42,210 nucleotides of DNA from a bacterium. GTDB taxonomy: Bacteria; SZUA-79; Acidulodesulfobacterales; Acidulodesulfobacteraceae. Under the pieces are notes generated by a model, which was not told the DNA's origin, ran no database searches, and saw only the letters and a list, made by a program, of their open reading frames with translations. Below, piece after piece: positions 23,274-40,294 of this stretch. Position 1 is the stretch's first letter. Each line of letters starts with the position of its first letter. Both the position numbers and the translations under genes were made by a program. The DNA lies in the NCBI GenBank assembly GCA_021798875.1, contig JAJZBN010000015.1, positions 1 through 42,210 of the forward strand. The letters are read 5' to 3'.

Positions 23274-23306
23274 GTAAATTTAAAAATATTTTTTATTTAA
23301 ATATTT

Positions 23307-23587
23307 AAAGGTGTCAGATTTATTTATTTGCTTACTCCTGCCTGAGTTTGCAGAATATTAGCAGGACACGGCTTTATTAAGATAATTTAAATGTGCATGA
23401 TTTAACTGAAGAGAAAAAGGTGTGAGAAAAAGGTGTCAGATTTTATTTTCCGCACCAAAATAAAAATAATTTGTAAAAACATAATTGCGGAAAATTAATC
23501 TGACACCTTTTTCGACTACATGATTATTACATGGCTGTACCATCAAACGCAGTCGGGAGTAAGCAAATAAATAAATCTGACACCTTT
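23307..23587. repeat. 281-bp element with 32-bp perfect terminal inverted repeats
   Basis: The left arm 23307-23338 starts AAAGGTGTCAGATTTATTTA. The right arm 23556-23587 is its exact 32-base reverse complement. The interior holds a second, independent inverted pair (23426-23513) and a smaller TCCTGC/GCAGGA pair. No open frame or transposase motif is visible inside. It ends five bases from the stop codon of the SDR gene and lies just upstream of the mraZ promoter. It looks like a non-autonomous mobile or REPIN-like element. Confidence 0.75.
23426..23513. repeat. 88-bp inner palindromic element, GGTGTCAGATT family
   Basis: The left arm 23426-23454 (GAAAAAGGTGTCAGATTTTA...) and right arm 23486-23513 are reverse complements apart from a small difference in the middle. 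Size and arms match the element at 36355-36447. A tandem copy of GAGAAAAAGGTGT (23411-23423 and 23424-23436) abuts its left end. Confidence 0.7.
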
Positions 23588-23591
23588 ATTT

Positions 23592-24522: not shown

Positions 24523-25479
24523 TTATTTTATTTCTTTGTAATTGAAATAGTGGTTAGCTTCTATATACCTTATGGTTCCAGTTTTAGACCTCATAACTAC
24601 GGAATGCGTTTTTGCGCCGCCGTGAAAAAATTTCACGCCGTTCAAATAATCGCCGTTAGTCACGCCGGTTGCGACGAATATCACGTCTCCGGCGGCAAGT
24701 TCCTGAATGCCGTAAACTTTATTTAAATCTTTTATTCCCATTTTAAGAGCGCGCTCTTTTTCGCCTTCATTCCTGAAAACAAGCCTGCCCTGCATATCGC
24801 CTCCAACGCATCTTAGCGCCGCCGCGCCGAGAACTCCTTCTGGTGCGCCTCCGGTGCCCATGAGAACGTCTATTCCGGAGTCTTCTTTGGCGGTTGCGAT
24901 AGCTCCCGCAACGTCGCCGTCCTGAATAAGGCGGATTCTTGCTCCGGCTTTTCTGACTTCTTCTATTAATTCTTTATGCCTTTCGCGGTTAAGGATTATG
25001 ACGGTAAGGTCTTCGACATATCTGTTCATGGCATCCGCTATCCTGTGAAGATTTTCCGTCGGAGAAAGATTGATGTCTATTGCGCCTTTTGCCTTGGGAC
25101 CGACGGCTATTTTCTGCATATAGGTATCCGGCGCGTGAAGAAAGTTCCCGTGGTCGCCTATTGCCATAACCGCAATAGCGTTTGGTGCGCTGGTAGCCGC
25201 TAAGGTAGTTCCTTCTAAAGGATCGACGGCTATATCGACCTTCTGCCCTTTTCCGTTGCCTACTTTTTCGCCTATGTAAAGCATCGGAGCTTCGTCCCTT
25301 TCTCCTTCGCCGATAACGATAGTGCCGTCTATATCGATATAGTTAAGGGAGTCCCTCATGGATTCTACGGCCGCCCTGTCTGCCGCTTTTTCGTCGCCCC
25401 TGCCTATAAATCTTGCAACCGATATTGCGGCATGTTCCGTAACCCTTACAAATTCGATGGTCAACGCTTTATCGTCCAT
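24523..25479 (-). CDS. glpX: class II fructose-1,6-bisphosphatase GlpX
   Basis: A metal-dependent phosphatase converting fructose-1,6-bisphosphate to fructose-6-phosphate in gluconeogenesis. It has 318 residues, normal for GlpX. Motifs include IGEGERDEAPMLYIGE and VDPLEGTTLAATSAPNA (metal and substrate aspartates and glutamates), GDVAGAIATA and MGTGGAPEGVLGAAALRC. The ribosome site GGGAGGAAC is strong. A dedicated promoter lies upstream. In an organism fixing carbon through the neighbouring operon it would supply hexoses from C2/C3/C4 products; that link is inference from proximity. Confidence 0.96.
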   Translation of the reverse strand: MDDKALTIEFVRVTEHAAISVARFIGRGDEKAADRAAVESMRDSLNYIDIDGTIVIGEGERDEAPMLYIGEKVGNGKGQKVDIAVDPLEGTTLAATSAPNAIAVMAIGDHGNFLHAPDTYMQKIAVGPKAKGAIDINLSPTENLHRIADAMNRYVEDLTVIILNRERHKELIEEVRKAGARIRLIQDGDVAGAIATAKEDSGIDVLMGTGGAPEGVLGAAALRCVGGDMQGRLVFRNEGEKERALKMGIKDLNKVYGIQELAAGDVIFVATGVTNGDYLNGVKFFHGGAKTHSVVMRSKTGTIRYIEANHYFNYKEIK

Positions 25480-33571: not shown

Positions 33572-34834
33572 TTAAATTTCTTTTATTATATGTTTGCCGA
33601 AATCTACCGTACTAAGCTCTACGGCTTTTTTGTCCAATTTTTCAAAACCGGTATAAATATCTCTTGTGCCGTTGCCTTGATAAATGGTTCTTTTGACTGC
33701 ATCGTAAACGAGTTTTGCCGCTTCGTTGAAACCGATGTATTCAAGCATCATAGCTCCCGAAAGAGTAATCGAAAGAGGATTGGCTATTCCTTTGCCGGCA
33801 ATGTCCAAACCTACGCCGTGCGTGCTTTCGAATAGAGCGTAGCCGTCGCCTATATTGCCGCTCGGCACGAAACCTGGTCCGCCGACTAACGCCGAAGCAA
33901 GATCGGAAATATAATCGCCGTTTAAATTCTGCGTAATAATAACGTCGTATGCATTAGGATTTAAAACCAACTGCATAAGCATCTGGTCGGTAATAACTTT
34001 GGATAATTTTATTTTTCCTGAAGAAACGCCTGCTTCCGTTGAAATTTTATCTTTAAATTCGTCCTCTTTTGCCACTTCGAATGCCCAATTTAGAAACGCT
34101 CCTTCCGTAGCTTTCATTATGTTGCCTTTACCGGCAACGGCGATAGATTTTTTGCCGTTATTTATAGCGTATCTGAAAGCTTTTCTTACGTGCCTTTTTG
34201 TTTTGAATTCGCTCATAGGCTTTATGGTAATTCCGGCATCCTCGGGTATAGCGTCTTCTTTAACGCCCATTTCTTTTATAAAAAAATTGCGCACCTTTTT
34301 TGCGCCTTCACAGCCTGCCATGTATTCTATTGCCATATAAACGTCGTCGGAATTTTCCCTAAAAATTGTAACATCTACTCTTTCAGGATCAGGAATAGGC
34401 GTCGGTTGACCAAGATAATAAACGGGTCTAATGGCAGAATAAAAATCCATAGACTGTCTTAATATAGAATTTAAAGATTTCCCTGGTTTGCCGACAGGAG
34501 TCCCAAGCGGTCCTTTAATGGAAACTACGCTGCGTTTAAGCAGTTCGAGAGTTTCCGCAGGCATTCTTTCCAAACCGTTAGACTCGGCTTTGTCTCCCGC
34601 AACGGCTTCTACCCAGTATATTTTCTTTGCATCTCCGTAAGCTTTTTCCATTGCAGCGTTTACTACGTTAAGCATTACGGGCGTAATCTCCGGACCTATA
34701 CCGTCACCGCTTATAAAAGGTATTATGGGATTTCCGGGCACTTCTATGCTATGATCTTTTTTTAATTTTATAAATTCGCCGTCCTTAGGTATGTTTATTT
34801 TACCGTCCCATAAAAAAACGTTTTCGTTTTTCAT
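33572..34834 (-). CDS. icd: isocitrate dehydrogenase / oxalosuccinate reductase, NAD-type residues
   Basis: A 420-residue beta-decarboxylating dehydrogenase of the E. coli Icd type. The substrate site is S120-L-N122-S-I-L-R126 and the metal aspartates are in the NGDYISDLASA region. Where E. coli NADP-Icd has Lys344, Tyr345 and Val351, this protein has Asp344, Ile345 and Ala351 (HGVGLDIAGKGIANP), the combination known to give NAD preference. In the Hydrogenobacter pathway the homologue reduces oxalosuccinate made by CfiAB. It is the first gene of the operon, with a promoter upstream and AAGGAA nine bases before ATG. It could also act oxidatively. Confidence 0.93.
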   Translation of the reverse strand: MKNENVFLWDGKINIPKDGEFIKLKKDHSIEVPGNPIIPFISGDGIGPEITPVMLNVVNAAMEKAYGDAKKIYWVEAVAGDKAESNGLERMPAETLELLKRSVVSIKGPLGTPVGKPGKSLNSILRQSMDFYSAIRPVYYLGQPTPIPDPERVDVTIFRENSDDVYMAIEYMAGCEGAKKVRNFFIKEMGVKEDAIPEDAGITIKPMSEFKTKRHVRKAFRYAINNGKKSIAVAGKGNIMKATEGAFLNWAFEVAKEDEFKDKISTEAGVSSGKIKLSKVITDQMLMQLVLNPNAYDVIITQNLNGDYISDLASALVGGPGFVPSGNIGDGYALFESTHGVGLDIAGKGIANPLSITLSGAMMLEYIGFNEAAKLVYDAVKRTIYQGNGTRDIYTGFEKLDKKAVELSTVDFGKHIIKEI

Positions 34835-35027: not shown

Positions 35028-36266
35028 TTATAATTGACAAAAGTTGTTTAAAAAATATTTAAAGAGCTTAGAGCCTGAGTCGAAAAATAAACCGCTGTTT
35101 TGGGCTAAATTTTCGGAATAATGAACAGCCGAGTATTTAGCAATTGCCTGCTTTTCGTTTTTAGTCGAAAAACCGCAGAACGGAACGGGTTCCGGCGTAT
35201 GTTTTTTTAATTTAACCTGATTATAATGGTCGGGCAAAATCATTACCGTGTAATCGCTAAATTTTTTAAGTCCTTCAAGCACGCCGCCGGCGATAAATTT
35301 ATCGAAATCTTCTATGGCTTTAAGCTTTAAATCTATTTTTCCTTCGTGGGAAGCTTCGTCGGTCGCTTCTACGTGAATATAAACAAAATCGCCGTCATTT
35401 AAAGATTTCATTCCGTATTCTACTTTACCGGCATAATTGGTATCCAAATATCCGGTAGCGCCGGGAACGTCGATAACTTTAAGTCCCGCATATTTTCCGA
35501 TGCCTTTTACTAAATCTACGGCGGAAATAACCGAGCCTTCAAGTCCGTAAGCTTCTTTCATGGTGGGCATGGATGGTTTATATCCCTGACCCCAAAGCCA
35601 AATTGAATTTGCCGGTAATTTGCCTGCGGCGATTCTTTTTTTATTTACTTCATGATTTTCCAATATTTTTTCCGCTTTTTTCATTATTTCGACTATTTCT
35701 GGACTTGAAGCGGTTCCGTGGGGAATATATTCGTCTATCTGCAAATCGGGAATGTCGTGCGGCGCAACGGTTTGAAGACCGTTTATATCTATATTTTTAA
35801 CTACAAGAAGATGTCTATAGCTGACGCCCGGGTAAAAGCGGAACCTTTCGTTTCCGAGCTCTTTTGCGAACGATTCGATAATCTGTTTTGCCTCTTCGGT
35901 GGTAATATGTCCGCCGGAATAGTCGTGCATATATTTTTTGCCGTCTTTTTCAAGTATATTTACAAGATTAAGCCTGAACGCAACGTCTTCTTTGCCGAGC
36001 TCAACGCCCATGCTTGCCGCTTCCAGAGGCGATCTTCCGGTATAATAATTTAAAGGGTCGTATCCAAGTATCGACATAGAACCAATATCGCTGCCCGGAA
36101 GACATCCGTCGGGAATAGTTTTCATTAAACCGGTAACTCCTCTTGCCGCCACGGAATCCATATTCGGCGTTTTAGCATACTCGAGGGGCGTTTTGCCGCC
36201 GAGTTCGGATAAAGGGGTATCGGCCATGCCGTCGGGGCACAAAATAACGTATTTATGTTTATTCAT
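35028..36266 (-). CDS. ApgM-like protein, candidate homoserine kinase (TIGR02535-like)
   Basis: A 412-residue metalloenzyme of the alkaline phosphatase superfamily, related to archaeal cofactor-independent phosphoglycerate mutase. Motifs are ILCPDGMADTPL at the N-terminus, PGSDIGSMSILGYDP (active-site Ser), IHVEATDEASHEG and ILPDHYNQ near the C-terminus. A subfamily of these proteins has been proposed as homoserine kinase in genomes that lack ThrB, typically next to hom and thrC. Here it follows hom and thrC on the same strand and no GHMP-type thrB is present, so threonine synthesis is the likelier role. Phosphoglycerate mutase is the alternative. GAGGAGG is rather far (14 bases) from the ATG. 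Confidence 0.8.
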   Translation of the reverse strand: MNKHKYVILCPDGMADTPLSELGGKTPLEYAKTPNMDSVAARGVTGLMKTIPDGCLPGSDIGSMSILGYDPLNYYTGRSPLEAASMGVELGKEDVAFRLNLVNILEKDGKKYMHDYSGGHITTEEAKQIIESFAKELGNERFRFYPGVSYRHLLVVKNIDINGLQTVAPHDIPDLQIDEYIPHGTASSPEIVEIMKKAEKILENHEVNKKRIAAGKLPANSIWLWGQGYKPSMPTMKEAYGLEGSVISAVDLVKGIGKYAGLKVIDVPGATGYLDTNYAGKVEYGMKSLNDGDFVYIHVEATDEASHEGKIDLKLKAIEDFDKFIAGGVLEGLKKFSDYTVMILPDHYNQVKLKKHTPEPVPFCGFSTKNEKQAIAKYSAVHYSENLAQNSGLFFDSGSKLFKYFLNNFCQL

Positions 36267-36354: not shown

Positions 36355-36447
36355 GGAAAAGGTGTCAGATTAATTTTTTTTGCAAATAGCTTTCTATGCT
36401 GATTGACTGTTTAGTATGCAAAAAAAATAAAATCTGACACCTTTTCC
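36355..36447. repeat. 93-bp palindromic element, GGTGTCAGATT family
   Basis: The left arm 36355-36384 begins GGAAAAGGTGTCAGATTAAT and the right arm 36417-36447 is its near-perfect reverse complement, both ending in a T-run and TGCA. The interior (about 32 bases) differs from the copy at 23426-23513, while size and arms agree. It lies in the 249-base gap between thrC and the apgM-like gene. Confidence 0.7.
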
Positions 36448-36451
36448 TCTT

Positions 36452-36513
36452 CCGGAATTGAATTCCGGCCTTTTCCAATTTGTGACAGTGCCAGAATTGA
36501 ATTCTGGCACTGT
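36452..36513. repeat. two GAATTGAATTC-core palindromes in tandem
   Basis: CCGGAATTGAATTCCGG (36452-36468) is a perfect odd palindrome. The second, 36485-36513, is a 29-base perfect palindrome centred on a G, with core CCAGAATTGAATTCTGG. The latter shares 16 bases with the element at 1698-1713. It ends three bases before the thrC stop codon and could fold as a strong hairpin at the thrC 3' end. Confidence 0.65.
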
Positions 36514-36515
36514 GT

Positions 36516-37583
36516 CTATATTATGCCCATAGCTTTTAGGACGGAGTTTTTATCGCAAGGAACGATGACCGGTTCCTTGGAAACCTTTATTGCATTGCCT
36601 GGGTCTTTAAGACCATGACCGGTAAGAGTCAAAACGCAGACTGAACCCTTTTCGAAAAATCCGCGTCCGTTAAGTTTAATTAATCCTGCAAGGGTAATCG
36701 CCGATGCAGGTTCGCAAAAAACTCCTTCGTTTGCGGCCAGCAAAGCATAGGCTTTTAATATATCTTCATCGCTTACCGATTCTATTAATCCGCCCGACTC
36801 TTCTTTTGCTTCTACGGCTTTCTGCCAGCTTGCGGGATTTCCTATTCTTATAGCCGTAGCGACGGTATGAGGCTCTTTTACAATATGGTTTAAAACAATA
36901 GGTGCAGCTCCTTCGGCCTGAAAACCTATCATTTTAGGAAGTTTGTTTATTTTACCGGCGGCGCGGTATTCTTTATAGCCTTTCCAGTACGCAGTTATAT
37001 TTCCGGCGTTTCCTACCGGCAAAATATGGTAATCCGGCGCGGAACCAAGTTCGTCCGCTATTTCAAAACTTGCAGTCTTCTGCCCTTCCAGCCTGAACGG
37101 ATTTACGGAATTAACCAAAGTAACGTCGTAATCTTTTGCTATTTCGCGCGTAATTACCAAAGCGTCGTCGAAATTTCCCTGAATCTGCATGACCAACGCT
37201 CCGTGGACTAAGGCCTGCGACAGCTTGCCGGTAGCTATTTTGCCTTCCGGTATTAATACGAAAGATTTTATTCCCGCCCTTGCCGCATAAGCGGAGGCAG
37301 AAGCAGAAGTATTTCCGGTAGAAGCGCATATTACGGCTTTGGAACCGTCTGAGACGGCTTTAGATACGGCCATCGTCATACCTCTGTCTTTAAAAGATCC
37401 CGTAGGATTTAAACCCTCGTATTTAAAATATATTTCTATATCGGGATTTATAATCTTGCCTAAATTACGGGCTTTAATAAGAGGAGTATTTCCTTCGTTT
37501 ATGGTAATTATATATTTTTCGTCTATTTCCGGTAAAAATTCACGATATTTTTTTATTACCCCTTCGTATCTTTTAAATGCCAA
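36516..37583 (-). CDS. thrC: threonine synthase
   Basis: A PLP enzyme converting O-phosphohomoserine to threonine. It has 355 residues, the shorter fold-type II form. The PLP-lysine motif is PTGSFKDRGM, the phosphate loop is PVGNAGNITAYWKGY, and ASTGNTSASASAYAARAG follows the lysine. The start codon is TTG at 37583, supported by GGAGGG five bases upstream; no ATG is suitably placed. It follows hom by 52 bases. Confidence 0.95.
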   Translation of the reverse strand: MAFKRYEGVIKKYREFLPEIDEKYIITINEGNTPLIKARNLGKIINPDIEIYFKYEGLNPTGSFKDRGMTMAVSKAVSDGSKAVICASTGNTSASASAYAARAGIKSFVLIPEGKIATGKLSQALVHGALVMQIQGNFDDALVITREIAKDYDVTLVNSVNPFRLEGQKTASFEIADELGSAPDYHILPVGNAGNITAYWKGYKEYRAAGKINKLPKMIGFQAEGAAPIVLNHIVKEPHTVATAIRIGNPASWQKAVEAKEESGGLIESVSDEDILKAYALLAANEGVFCEPASAITLAGLIKLNGRGFFEKGSVCVLTLTGHGLKDPGNAIKVSKEPVIVPCDKNSVLKAMGII

Positions 37584-37635: not shown

Positions 37636-38937
37636 TTAATCTATTTTGTCTTCTATCCTTAAAACCATAGTCTTAGCGGTAATAACATCTAATTTGTCGC
37701 ACTTTTCTATACTCCTAAGCAATTCGGCTTCGTTTGCCTCGTGAGTGGTGATTACTATGGGAACGGAACCCTCGACTTTCCTGCCTTTTTGAATCATAGA
37801 GCTTATGCTAATAGAGTTTTCCCCGAGAATACCGGATATTTTAGACAGCACTCCCGGTCTGTCCATAGCCGAAAATCTTAAATAATATCTTGAAATTATA
37901 TCTTTTTTTGTTTTTATATTGAGCTTGTTTTTAATTTTAGACATAATAAAATCGCGTCTGCCTTCGCCGTTGATTATTCCCGAAACAGTTTCTACCAGAT
38001 CTCCCATGACTGCGCCGGCTGTAGGATTTCCTCCGGCTCCGTAACCGGTAAGGCTCAACGGTCCGGCAAATTTAGTATTGACGAGAAATGCGTTAAAAAC
38101 GCCGTCAACCTTCGCTATAATGCTTGAAGACGGAATTAAAGTAGGGTGAACCCTTATTTCTATTTTGGAGTCTTCGTTTTTGAGAATTCCCAAAAGTTTT
38201 ATAACGTATCCAAGTTCTTTTGCAAAACTTATGTCTAACTGCGATATATTTTCGATGCCTTCTATTATAATATCGTCCATAGTCAAACTTGTCGAAAAAG
38301 CGAGCCTGCCCAAAATAGCAAGTTTATGGGCGCTGTCCGTCCCGTTTATGTCTAAAGACGGATCTGCTTCGGCATATCCTTTTTCCTGAGCTTTTTTAAG
38401 AACGTCTTCAAATTTTCCGCCTTCGTTGGTCATTTTAGAAAGTATGAAATTCGACGTTCCGTTTATTATAGAATAGACCGATTTAATTACGTCTCCGGCA
38501 AGTCCGTTTTTAATGGAACGCAAAATAGGAATGCCGCCGCCGACGGCCGCTTCGAATCCTATATGCACTTTTTTTTCCGAGGCTTTTTTAAATATCTCCT
38601 CTCCATGTTCGGCAAGAAGAGCTTTGTTTGCGGTAATTATATTTTTCCCGCCGGTTATGGCTTGCAAAATAATATCTTTTGCCGGTTCTATTCCGCCTAT
38701 AAGCTCTATAACGATGTCGATATCCTTGTCGTCTATTATGTCGCCGGCACTTTTAACGAGAAGTTTTTTAATATTTTCGGGTACAGGGTGGCTCTTGCCG
38801 CGGGTATATATCTTTTTTACATTAACCGGCATCGAAAATAAGTCGTCGATTTCATTTTTCTGCTCCGAGAAAATGTGGTAAAAACTCGAAGCTACGGTAC
38901 CGAAGCCGAGAAGTCCAATATTGACAGATTTTTTCAT
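37636..38937 (-). CDS. hom: homoserine dehydrogenase with C-terminal ACT domain
   Basis: Reduces aspartate semialdehyde to homoserine. It has 433 residues, normal for the monofunctional enzyme. The NAD(P) loop is IGLLGFGTVASSF, the catalytic region reads GYAEADPSLDINGTDSAHKLAIL, and the C-terminal ACT domain (about 350-430, RFSAMDRPGVLSKISGILGENSISISSMIQ in parts) suggests feedback control by threonine or another amino acid. It is in a block with an aminotransferase, thrC and the apgM-like gene. Confidence 0.96.
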   Translation of the reverse strand: MKKSVNIGLLGFGTVASSFYHIFSEQKNEIDDLFSMPVNVKKIYTRGKSHPVPENIKKLLVKSAGDIIDDKDIDIVIELIGGIEPAKDIILQAITGGKNIITANKALLAEHGEEIFKKASEKKVHIGFEAAVGGGIPILRSIKNGLAGDVIKSVYSIINGTSNFILSKMTNEGGKFEDVLKKAQEKGYAEADPSLDINGTDSAHKLAILGRLAFSTSLTMDDIIIEGIENISQLDISFAKELGYVIKLLGILKNEDSKIEIRVHPTLIPSSSIIAKVDGVFNAFLVNTKFAGPLSLTGYGAGGNPTAGAVMGDLVETVSGIINGEGRRDFIMSKIKNKLNIKTKKDIISRYYLRFSAMDRPGVLSKISGILGENSISISSMIQKGRKVEGSVPIVITTHEANEAELLRSIEKCDKLDVITAKTMVLRIEDKID

Positions 38938-39082: not shown

Positions 39083-40294
39083 TTATACTGCTTTGCGTAT
39101 AAATTCTTCGTTATTTATGAAATGTTTTACTCCTTTAGATGCCTGCCTTATCCTCATCTCGTTTTCCACTAATGCAAAACGGACGTATTCGTCGCCGTAT
39201 TCCCCGAATCCTATTCCAGGAGAAACCGCAACTTTGGCATTATCAAGCAATAATTTAGAAAATTCGAGCGATTTTATTCCCGCATCAAGAAACTGTGCGG
39301 GTATTTTACCCCAAACAAACATGGTAGCTTTCGGTTTTTCTATGTGCCATCCCGCAAACCTGAAACTTTCTATAAGTACGTCTCTTCTTTTTTTATAATG
39401 CAAAACCATATCGCTTACGGCATTATGTTCCATTTCCTCATTAAGGGCTATTATGGAGGCTATCTGTATGGGCTGAAACATTCCGTAATCCAGATAGCTT
39501 TTTATCCTGGAAAGCGCGTTTATAAGGGTAGGATTGCCGAGCGCATAACCGACCCTGAACCCTGCCATACTGTAGCTTTTCGACATAGAAAAAAATTCTA
39601 TTCCTACGTCTTTTGCGCCCTTTGCCTGCAAAAAACTGGGGGCTTTGTATCCGTCGAAAGTCAAATCGGCGTATGCATTGTCGTGTATTATATATATGTT
39701 GTTTTCTTTGGCAAAATCGACTAATTTTTCAAAAAAATCAAGTTCCACGGTAACCGTAGTGGGATTGTGAGGGAAACTTAAAACGATAACCTTAGGTTTA
39801 GGCCAAGTCTGCTTTAGCGCCGTCATAAGATGTTCAAAAAAATCTTCGCCTGGAATTAAAGGTATGCTTCTCACGTCTCCTCCAGCAATAATAACGCTGT
39901 ATGCATGGATGGGATAAGTCGGGTTGGGCACGAAAGCAACGTCGCCTTTATTTATAATCGCCAGCATAAGATGACTCAATCCTTCTTTTATACCCATAGT
40001 AACGATAGCTTCGGAGTCTGGGTCAAGTTCGACGCCGTAATTTCTTTTGTACATATTTACTATGGCAAGCCTCAGTTTGTAAATTCCTTTAGATACCGAA
40101 TATCTGTGGTTTTTAGGATGTCTCGACGCTTCTATCAGCTTTTCTATTATATAATCCGGAGTAGGAGAATCGGGATTGCCCATTCCAAGGTCTATAATAT
40201 CGTCGCCCCTTTTTCTGGCTTCCATTTTTATTTTATTTACTTCCGCAAAAACATATGGCGGCAGCCTTTTAATAGTTTCAAAATCTTCAGTCAT
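39083..40294 (-). CDS. class I/II PLP aminotransferase (AlaC/DapL-like)
   Basis: A 403-residue fold-type I aminotransferase. [15 protein letters not shown] and [15 protein letters not shown] are at the N-terminus, the PLP lysine is in [18 protein letters not shown], and [13 protein letters not shown] and [15 protein letters not shown] line the cofactor. The pattern resembles alanine transaminase AlaC and LL-diaminopimelate aminotransferase-like proteins. Its place directly before hom suggests aspartate or alanine formation feeding the aspartate family; the exact substrate cannot be read from sequence. Confidence 0.88.

Follow-up and report, generated by a model that had tools for sequence, protein, structure and literature searches.

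A phosphoglycerate mutase-like protein as the predicted homoserine kinase ThrB2 in a threonine gene cluster of an uncultivated member of the Acidulodesulfobacterales

In Bacteroides thetaiotaomicron and Dehalococcoides, a threonine synthase is present and no known homoserine kinase (Price 2018; PMC5764234); the homoserine kinase of Desulfovibrio vulgaris is of the shikimate-kinase type (PMC5764234). The hypothesis behind the protein family TIGR02535, "proposed homoserine kinase", was taken up in GapMind (2020) with fitness data for BT2402 of B. thetaiotaomicron: mutants require threonine in minimal medium, an E. coli thrB mutant was not complemented by the gene, and among 148 prototrophs homoserine kinase was of low confidence in 29, of which 15 carry TIGR02535 (PMC7311316). 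A 2022 survey named the protein ThrB2, found it in 300 gut genomes, 278 of them without thrB, and described the occurrence of thrB and thrB2 as complementary; in most Bacteroidetes, thrB2 shares an operon of three genes with thrC and a gene for a fused Asd-Hom (PMC9026213). No demonstrated ThrB2 enzyme activity was found among the matches listed in a search of mostly open-access literature, and a search by gene name gave no papers on the archaeal mutases.

As the homoserine-kinase idea is already in print (TIGR02535; GapMind 2020; ThrB2 2022), the protein described here is a well-supported further member of this family, with its activity predicted. It resembles the BT2402 system in passing the curated cut-off, in its threonine context and in that no thrB was found, and differs from it by its array of aminotransferase, hom, thrC and thrB2 with an unfused hom, and by its host, an uncultivated relative of Ca. 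Acididesulfobacter. With ThrB of the GHMP type (TIGR00191) and the shikimate-kinase-like NF040667 it would share the expected product, O-phosphohomoserine, and the slot in the pathway, whereas both are from different protein families (Pfam) and neither was found over its cut-off in this genome.

The threonine locus and the names of its last gene

The window, that is, the whole stretch of 42,210 nucleotides that was analysed, is part of a 2.5-Mb genome assembled into 126 contigs, with a completeness of 97.33%. It is close to two metagenome-assembled genomes (L045 and L046, 95% identity) and related to Ca. Acididesulfobacter diazotrophicus (L057, 73% identity). Four genes, all on the minus strand and headed by the aminotransferase, make up the locus:

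39083 to 40294, minus strand: aminotransferase of class I, alanine / LL-diaminopimelate type (602 bits on its best model, cut-off 647)
37636 to 38937, minus strand: hom, homoserine dehydrogenase with a C-terminal ACT domain, 433 aa (PRK06349, 497 bits, cut-off 205)
36516 to 37583, minus strand: thrC, threonine synthase, 355 aa when counted from the listed TTG codon (TIGR00260, 314.5 bits, cut-off 167.1)
35028 to 36266, minus strand: thrB2 candidate, ApgM-like TIGR02535 protein, 412 aa, intact open reading frame with ATG start

The 412-aa protein matched PF10143 and PF01676; these domains and its fold place it among the metalloenzymes of the alkaline-phosphatase superfamily. TIGR02535 was matched over its full length (profile positions 2-397 of 397) with 517.3 bits (cut-off 446.3). 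The gene also lies among threonine genes, and no classical thrB was found in its genome, as has been described for this family. The original prediction had assigned the gene by context to the proposed non-homologous homoserine kinases, which is supported by the TIGR02535 score and, as set out below, by the separate GpmI and by searches that found no thrB of the GHMP, APH or Desulfovibrio shikimate-kinase type. The names given by the databases conflict: PRK04200, "cofactor-independent phosphoglycerate mutase", was passed with an even higher score (544.3 bits, cut-off 426); the broad subfamily TIGR00306 apgM was passed as well (502 bits, cut-off 320). PRK04200 and TIGR02535 tag the same proteins; of six ThrB2-like loci scanned, five pass the former and four the latter. 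The archaeal mutase models were both failed (PRK04024, 292.8 of 489 bits; PRK04135, 177.9 of 468 bits). The model of the phosphonoformyl transferase PhpG (NF038358) was matched at only 207 bits (cut-off 545), and a literature search for this protein as a precedent gave no paper.

Palindromes fill much of the 249-base spacer between thrC and thrB2 (36355-36447 and 36485-36513), with AAAAGGTGTCAGATT arms and a perfect ACAGTGCCAGAATT pair; further ones lie at 23306-23588 and 1699-1713. The AAAAGGTGTCAGATT motif has six matches in the window (at most two mismatches; 0.06 expected). By their appearance we take these palindromes to be mobile elements of the REP type. The same spacer is shorter than 35 bases in the close relatives L045 and L046 and offers no room for them. 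Downstream of thrB2, icd (33572-34834) is 96% identical to its counterparts in L045 and L046 and 78-80% to those in L054-L057, and only 45-47% to those in L047, L049-L052 and L058, so that two types of icd occupy one slot.

Homoserine kinases in the genome, the family and other groups

The original prediction stated that no GHMP-type thrB lies in the gene block. This was borne out: none is present in the window, and the only PF00288 match of the genome (E ≤ 0.001), on another contig, is IspE (180 bits, cut-off 139), which reached 50.5 bits on the thrB model (cut-off 168). A genome search with TIGR00191 likewise gave nothing over its cut-off, with 41.4 bits at the ispE place. Two APH matches were found, one of them over the cut-off only with neighbours in frame; both were rejected as homoserine kinases of the APH type, since by eye one resembles a Ser/Thr protein kinase and the other a protein of the UbiB type. 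The single SKI place of the genome, downstream of aroC, holds a gene of 195 aa that scored best on a shikimate-kinase model (150.9 bits, below the cut-off of 204). With 93.8 bits on NF040667 "hom_kin_desulfo" (cut-off 197) it was rejected as a homoserine kinase of the Desulfovibrio type; most simply, it is the shikimate kinase. A canonical thrB hidden elsewhere in the genome was rejected for the GHMP, APH and SKI types. Absence from one 97.33%-complete, 126-contig genome is weak evidence alone, and becomes firmer because none of 30 related genomes, all of one family, exceeded the thrB cut-off.

These relatives were obtained by a draw at phylum level, and the 30 genomes that it yielded represent six genera of a single family. 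In 27 of them, including all 19 of good quality, TIGR02535 exceeded its cut-off. In each of the 27 carriers, thrC lies next to thrB2 on the same contig and strand, the matches ending at most about 640 bases apart (coordinates of the two profile searches, compared by eye). The three genomes lacking thrB2 (G010, G015 and G023; completeness 85, 99 and 59) also lack the adjoining thrC and have kept only a second, different ThrC. With TIGR00191, sub-threshold matches were obtained in 29 of the 30 genomes. Identified were that of the window's own genome (IspE) and the best one (L036), which was rejected as thrB: its best model was heptose-7-phosphate kinase, at 434 bits below the cut-off of 600. SKI matches were found in 25 genomes (two places in G018) and none in five; the search is thus incomplete per genome.

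The second ThrC was over the cut-off in 28 of the 30 relatives (all except G021 and G026). In the window's genome it heads a cluster on contig C85 (L150:3615-7940) with a ThiS-NIL fusion, ThiF/MoeB, TusA, CysK/M and a JAB protease, which looks like a pathway for cysteine or homocysteine synthesis from a protein thiocarboxylate. The substrate of this second ThrC may be O-phosphohomoserine or O-phosphoserine, used together with a sulfur carrier.

In a scan of named genomes, 80 loci were considered, the best 80 of at least 500 relatives. In the 14 loci from the group to which the window belongs, hom and thrC always share the strand of thrB2, and thrC immediately precedes it. Among the other 66, hom or thrC was present in the available flank in 30 (all on the same strand in 29 of these), and thrC lay within 700 bases upstream in 18; where at least 5 kb of upstream sequence existed, hom or thrC was found in 25 of 45. 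Because thrC stands beside thrB2 in every carrier of the family and hom or thrC flanks 30 of these 66 loci elsewhere, the threonine-gene neighbourhood is not due to chance. A motif scan detected no GHMP protein in any of the 80 loci. When 50 of the 66 genomes were searched for thrB, six exceeded the cut-off of 168.25 bits, one reached 161.8 and none of the remaining 43 scored above 73.5 bits. The seven genomes with both thrB2 and a thrB-like gene (G042, G056, G060, G069, G070, G071 and G073), five of which were reached from Actinomycetota loci (L090, L096 and L111-L113), are test cases for redundancy or changed function.

A gene that by eye resembles glpX, for a class II fructose bisphosphatase, directly follows thrB2 in L135, L136 and L137; being a gluconeogenic neighbour, it was counted against the homoserine-kinase reading. 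The window's own glpX is located at 24523-25479. In four Omnitrophota loci (L062, L064, L067 and L070), a CoaB-like gene (phosphopantothenoylcysteine synthetase, by eye; 213-244 aa) lies between thrC and thrB2. Six frames of 738-1270 aa, considered as ThrB2 fusions, were rejected, their reading suggesting stop-free, GC-rich extensions over neighbouring genes.

A second sample comprised 118 genomes (at least 90% completeness requested) from the phylum to which a Desulfomonile genome belongs. TIGR02535 was matched at E ≤ 1e-60 in 101 (97 over the cut-off) and thrB at E ≤ 1e-25 in six (five over the cut-off); four genomes had both genes, two thrB alone and 15 neither, and 97 of the 101 carriers were without thrB. 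These counts do not show an anticorrelation of the two genes within this phylum, as thrB is rare in both groups (four of 101 versus two of 17). That 15 of the 17 non-carriers also lack a GHMP-type thrB, the type searched for there, means that other homoserine kinases occur nearby or were missed. Among 14 control genomes, four matched TIGR02535 at E ≤ 1e-60, two of them over its cut-off; thrB (E ≤ 1e-25) was not matched in two of the four, Bacteroides ihuae and Methanosarcina acetivorans, and was matched in the other two, Methanocaldococcus jannaschii and Sulfolobus acidocaldarius.

The protein could be needed for threonine synthesis without phosphorylating homoserine, being a partner of a kinase or of ThrC, or a repair phosphatase, while another kinase acts. 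Genomes such as the 15 from the Desulfomonile phylum that lack both genes would agree with such a role, as would the failure of BT2402 to complement E. coli and the reserve expressed by the authors of that work (PMC7311316). Yet the genome searched here contains no candidate for the other kinase among the GHMP, APH and SKI families, and there are the few Bacteroidetes in which thrB replaces thrB2 in a similar threonine operon (PMC9026213). A role of this kind is considered unlikely.

Separation from phosphoglycerate mutases

Another phosphoglycerate mutase, whose presence elsewhere in the genome was a further check of the original prediction, was indeed found: a full-length GpmI of 517 aa on contig C79 (639 bits, cut-off 331). 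GpmI and the thrB2 candidate are the only PF01676 matches of the genome, and PF00300 had no match in it. The related genomes all matched GpmI, 29 of the 30 over the cut-off; the copy in G018 is cut by a contig end, and that in G029 is split into two frames. The separate full-length GpmI can, judged by its family, carry out the mutase step. Archaeal-type genes in bacteria, including delta-proteobacteria, were counted as phosphoglycerate mutases by Foster et al (2010; PMC2964296). In Table 1 of the same paper, 11 of 21 delta-proteobacteria carry the archaeal type, each of them together with a further phosphoglycerate mutase, which fits a role other than that of a mutase.

For a comparison of residues, 81 ThrB2-like rows (the window and the 80 loci) were set against seven mutase-type rows, namely partial segments of the two solved structures 3kd8 and 2zkt and five uncharacterised paralogues. 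Four of these paralogues were scanned: L127 passes PRK04024, L129 and L131 pass PRK04135, and L128 passes apgM and is 3 bits short of PRK04024. In a quick maximum-likelihood tree of 85 rows (three were left out), a single branch with full SH-aLRT support split the 78 ThrB2-like from the seven mutase-type rows, and 20 alignment columns divide the two groups almost fully. All seven mutase-type rows have Arg at positions 116, 117 and 225 and Lys at position 300. In all 81 ThrB2-like rows these are replaced, by Tyr, His, Phe, Asn or Pro (116), Ser, Thr, Ala or Gly (117), Trp (225) and Glu (300); the window protein has Tyr, Ser, Trp and Glu, and thus none of the basic residues of the mutase type. 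Positions 223 and 150 likewise changed from Leu to Trp and from His to Tyr, respectively (7/7 versus 81/81), and Glu304 is found in 80 of 81 ThrB2-like and in none of the mutase-type rows. Across the ThrB2-like family, the four basic positions show a net loss of positive and a gain of negative charge. Such a change would be expected if the substrate shifted from phosphoglycerate to a zwitterionic amino acid. No mention of this charge swap was found in the available text of PMC9765024 or of the other papers cited.

The presumed catalytic residues are nearly all retained. By comparison with GpmI, we take Asp12, Asp303, His307, Asp346, His347 and His356 to be metal ligands and Ser59 to be the nucleophile. 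Asp303 is invariant across both groups. Where a row covers the respective column, Asp346 and His347 are invariant too, and His356 is missing from a single row; position 59 is Thr in L072. His307 is found in 80 of 81 ThrB2-like rows and in two of the seven mutase-type rows, the other five having Glu, which makes those five imperfect references for a mutase. For BT2402, conservation of the zinc sites, but not of the calcium site, has been described (PMC9765024). An AlphaFold2 model (48-row alignment; mean pLDDT 96.5) was closest to the archaeal enzymes, with 2zkt_B as the closest solved chain (VIA-align Z 45.4; 371 residues aligned at an rmsd of 2.4) and the Thermoplasma enzyme (3kd8) also among the closest. 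Bacterial iPGMs followed at Z of about 20-21, some with 3PG or 2PG bound. The modelled fold fits metal-dependent phosphoryl transfer in general, whichever the substrate.

Compared with archaeal ApgM (2zkt, 3kd8/3idd; PRK04024, PRK04135), the protein thus shares the fold, the presumed metal-site residues and 34-35% identity to two PDB segments, whereas it stands on the other side of the fully supported branch of the quick tree, has Arg116, Arg117, Arg225 and Lys300 replaced and stays below both cut-offs. That it is simply one more cofactor-independent phosphoglycerate mutase of the archaeal type, placed in the threonine operon by chance or for regulation, is quite unlikely. The equivalog name of PRK04200, the nearness of the fold to 2zkt and 3kd8 and the counting of delta-proteobacterial genes by Foster et al (PMC2964296) speak for a mutase; the GpmI of the genome and its relatives, the loss of the four basic residues in all 81 rows, the strict pairing of thrB2 with thrC and the delta-proteobacterial carriers, none of which depends on the archaeal type as its only phosphoglycerate mutase (PMC2964296), speak against it. 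A bifunctional enzyme, a homoserine phosphotransferase with residual mutase activity, would suit the shared fold and the almost complete conservation of presumed nucleophile and metal ligands, and is nonetheless very improbable given the separate GpmI and the absence of the four basic residues.

Proposed reaction and significance

The gene probably encodes the homoserine-phosphorylating enzyme of the organism, ThrB2, predicted to form O-phosphohomoserine by phosphotransfer via a phosphoserine enzyme. The evidence for ThrB2 consists of the family, the gene context, the absence of the known kinase types, the separate mutase gene, the conserved presumed metal ligands and the charge change; the reaction, its phosphoserine step, the donor and the residues holding homoserine are what we infer. 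ThrB2 would have kept the alkaline-phosphatase / ApgM fold, a presumed binuclear metal site and the presumed Ser nucleophile, and lost the basic residues of the mutase type. Most likely, Ser59 would accept a phosphoryl group from a small phosphorylated donor, more probably phosphoenolpyruvate or a phosphoglycerate than ATP, and phospho-Ser59 would pass it to the hydroxyl of homoserine, yielding O-phosphohomoserine for the adjacent ThrC. The first half-reaction would be as in iPGM, which works via a phosphoserine enzyme (PMC5382265), with homoserine replacing glycerate as the acceptor. A donor such as phosphoenolpyruvate was proposed by the TIGRFam curators, as cited in GapMind (PMC7311316). 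That BT2402 did not complement E. coli could be accounted for by a donor other than ATP or by a partner that E. coli does not have; simple misfolding, or another function of the protein, would account for it just as well.

Homoserine kinase is among the commonest gaps in predicting the amino-acid self-sufficiency of microbes. Since an equivalog model names the same proteins phosphoglycerate mutase, many genomes may be misannotated. The case described here is a clean natural setting, with one carrier gene, no known kinase type found, a separate mutase and a steady arrangement across the family. The residue signature, which is open to mutation tests, may allow homoserine-kinase and mutase functions to be told apart. 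More tentatively, and with somewhat less than even confidence, threonine synthesis, here and in many groups of bacteria and archaea, could dispense with an ATP-dependent homoserine kinase and use instead a re-tooled mutase that would draw on a glycolytic phosphoester donor via phospho-Ser59 and whose site, through the exchange of Arg116, Arg117, Arg225 and Lys300 for aromatic, hydroxyl or acidic residues (with Trp223, Trp225, Glu300 and Glu304), would have been converted to suit a zwitterionic amino acid.
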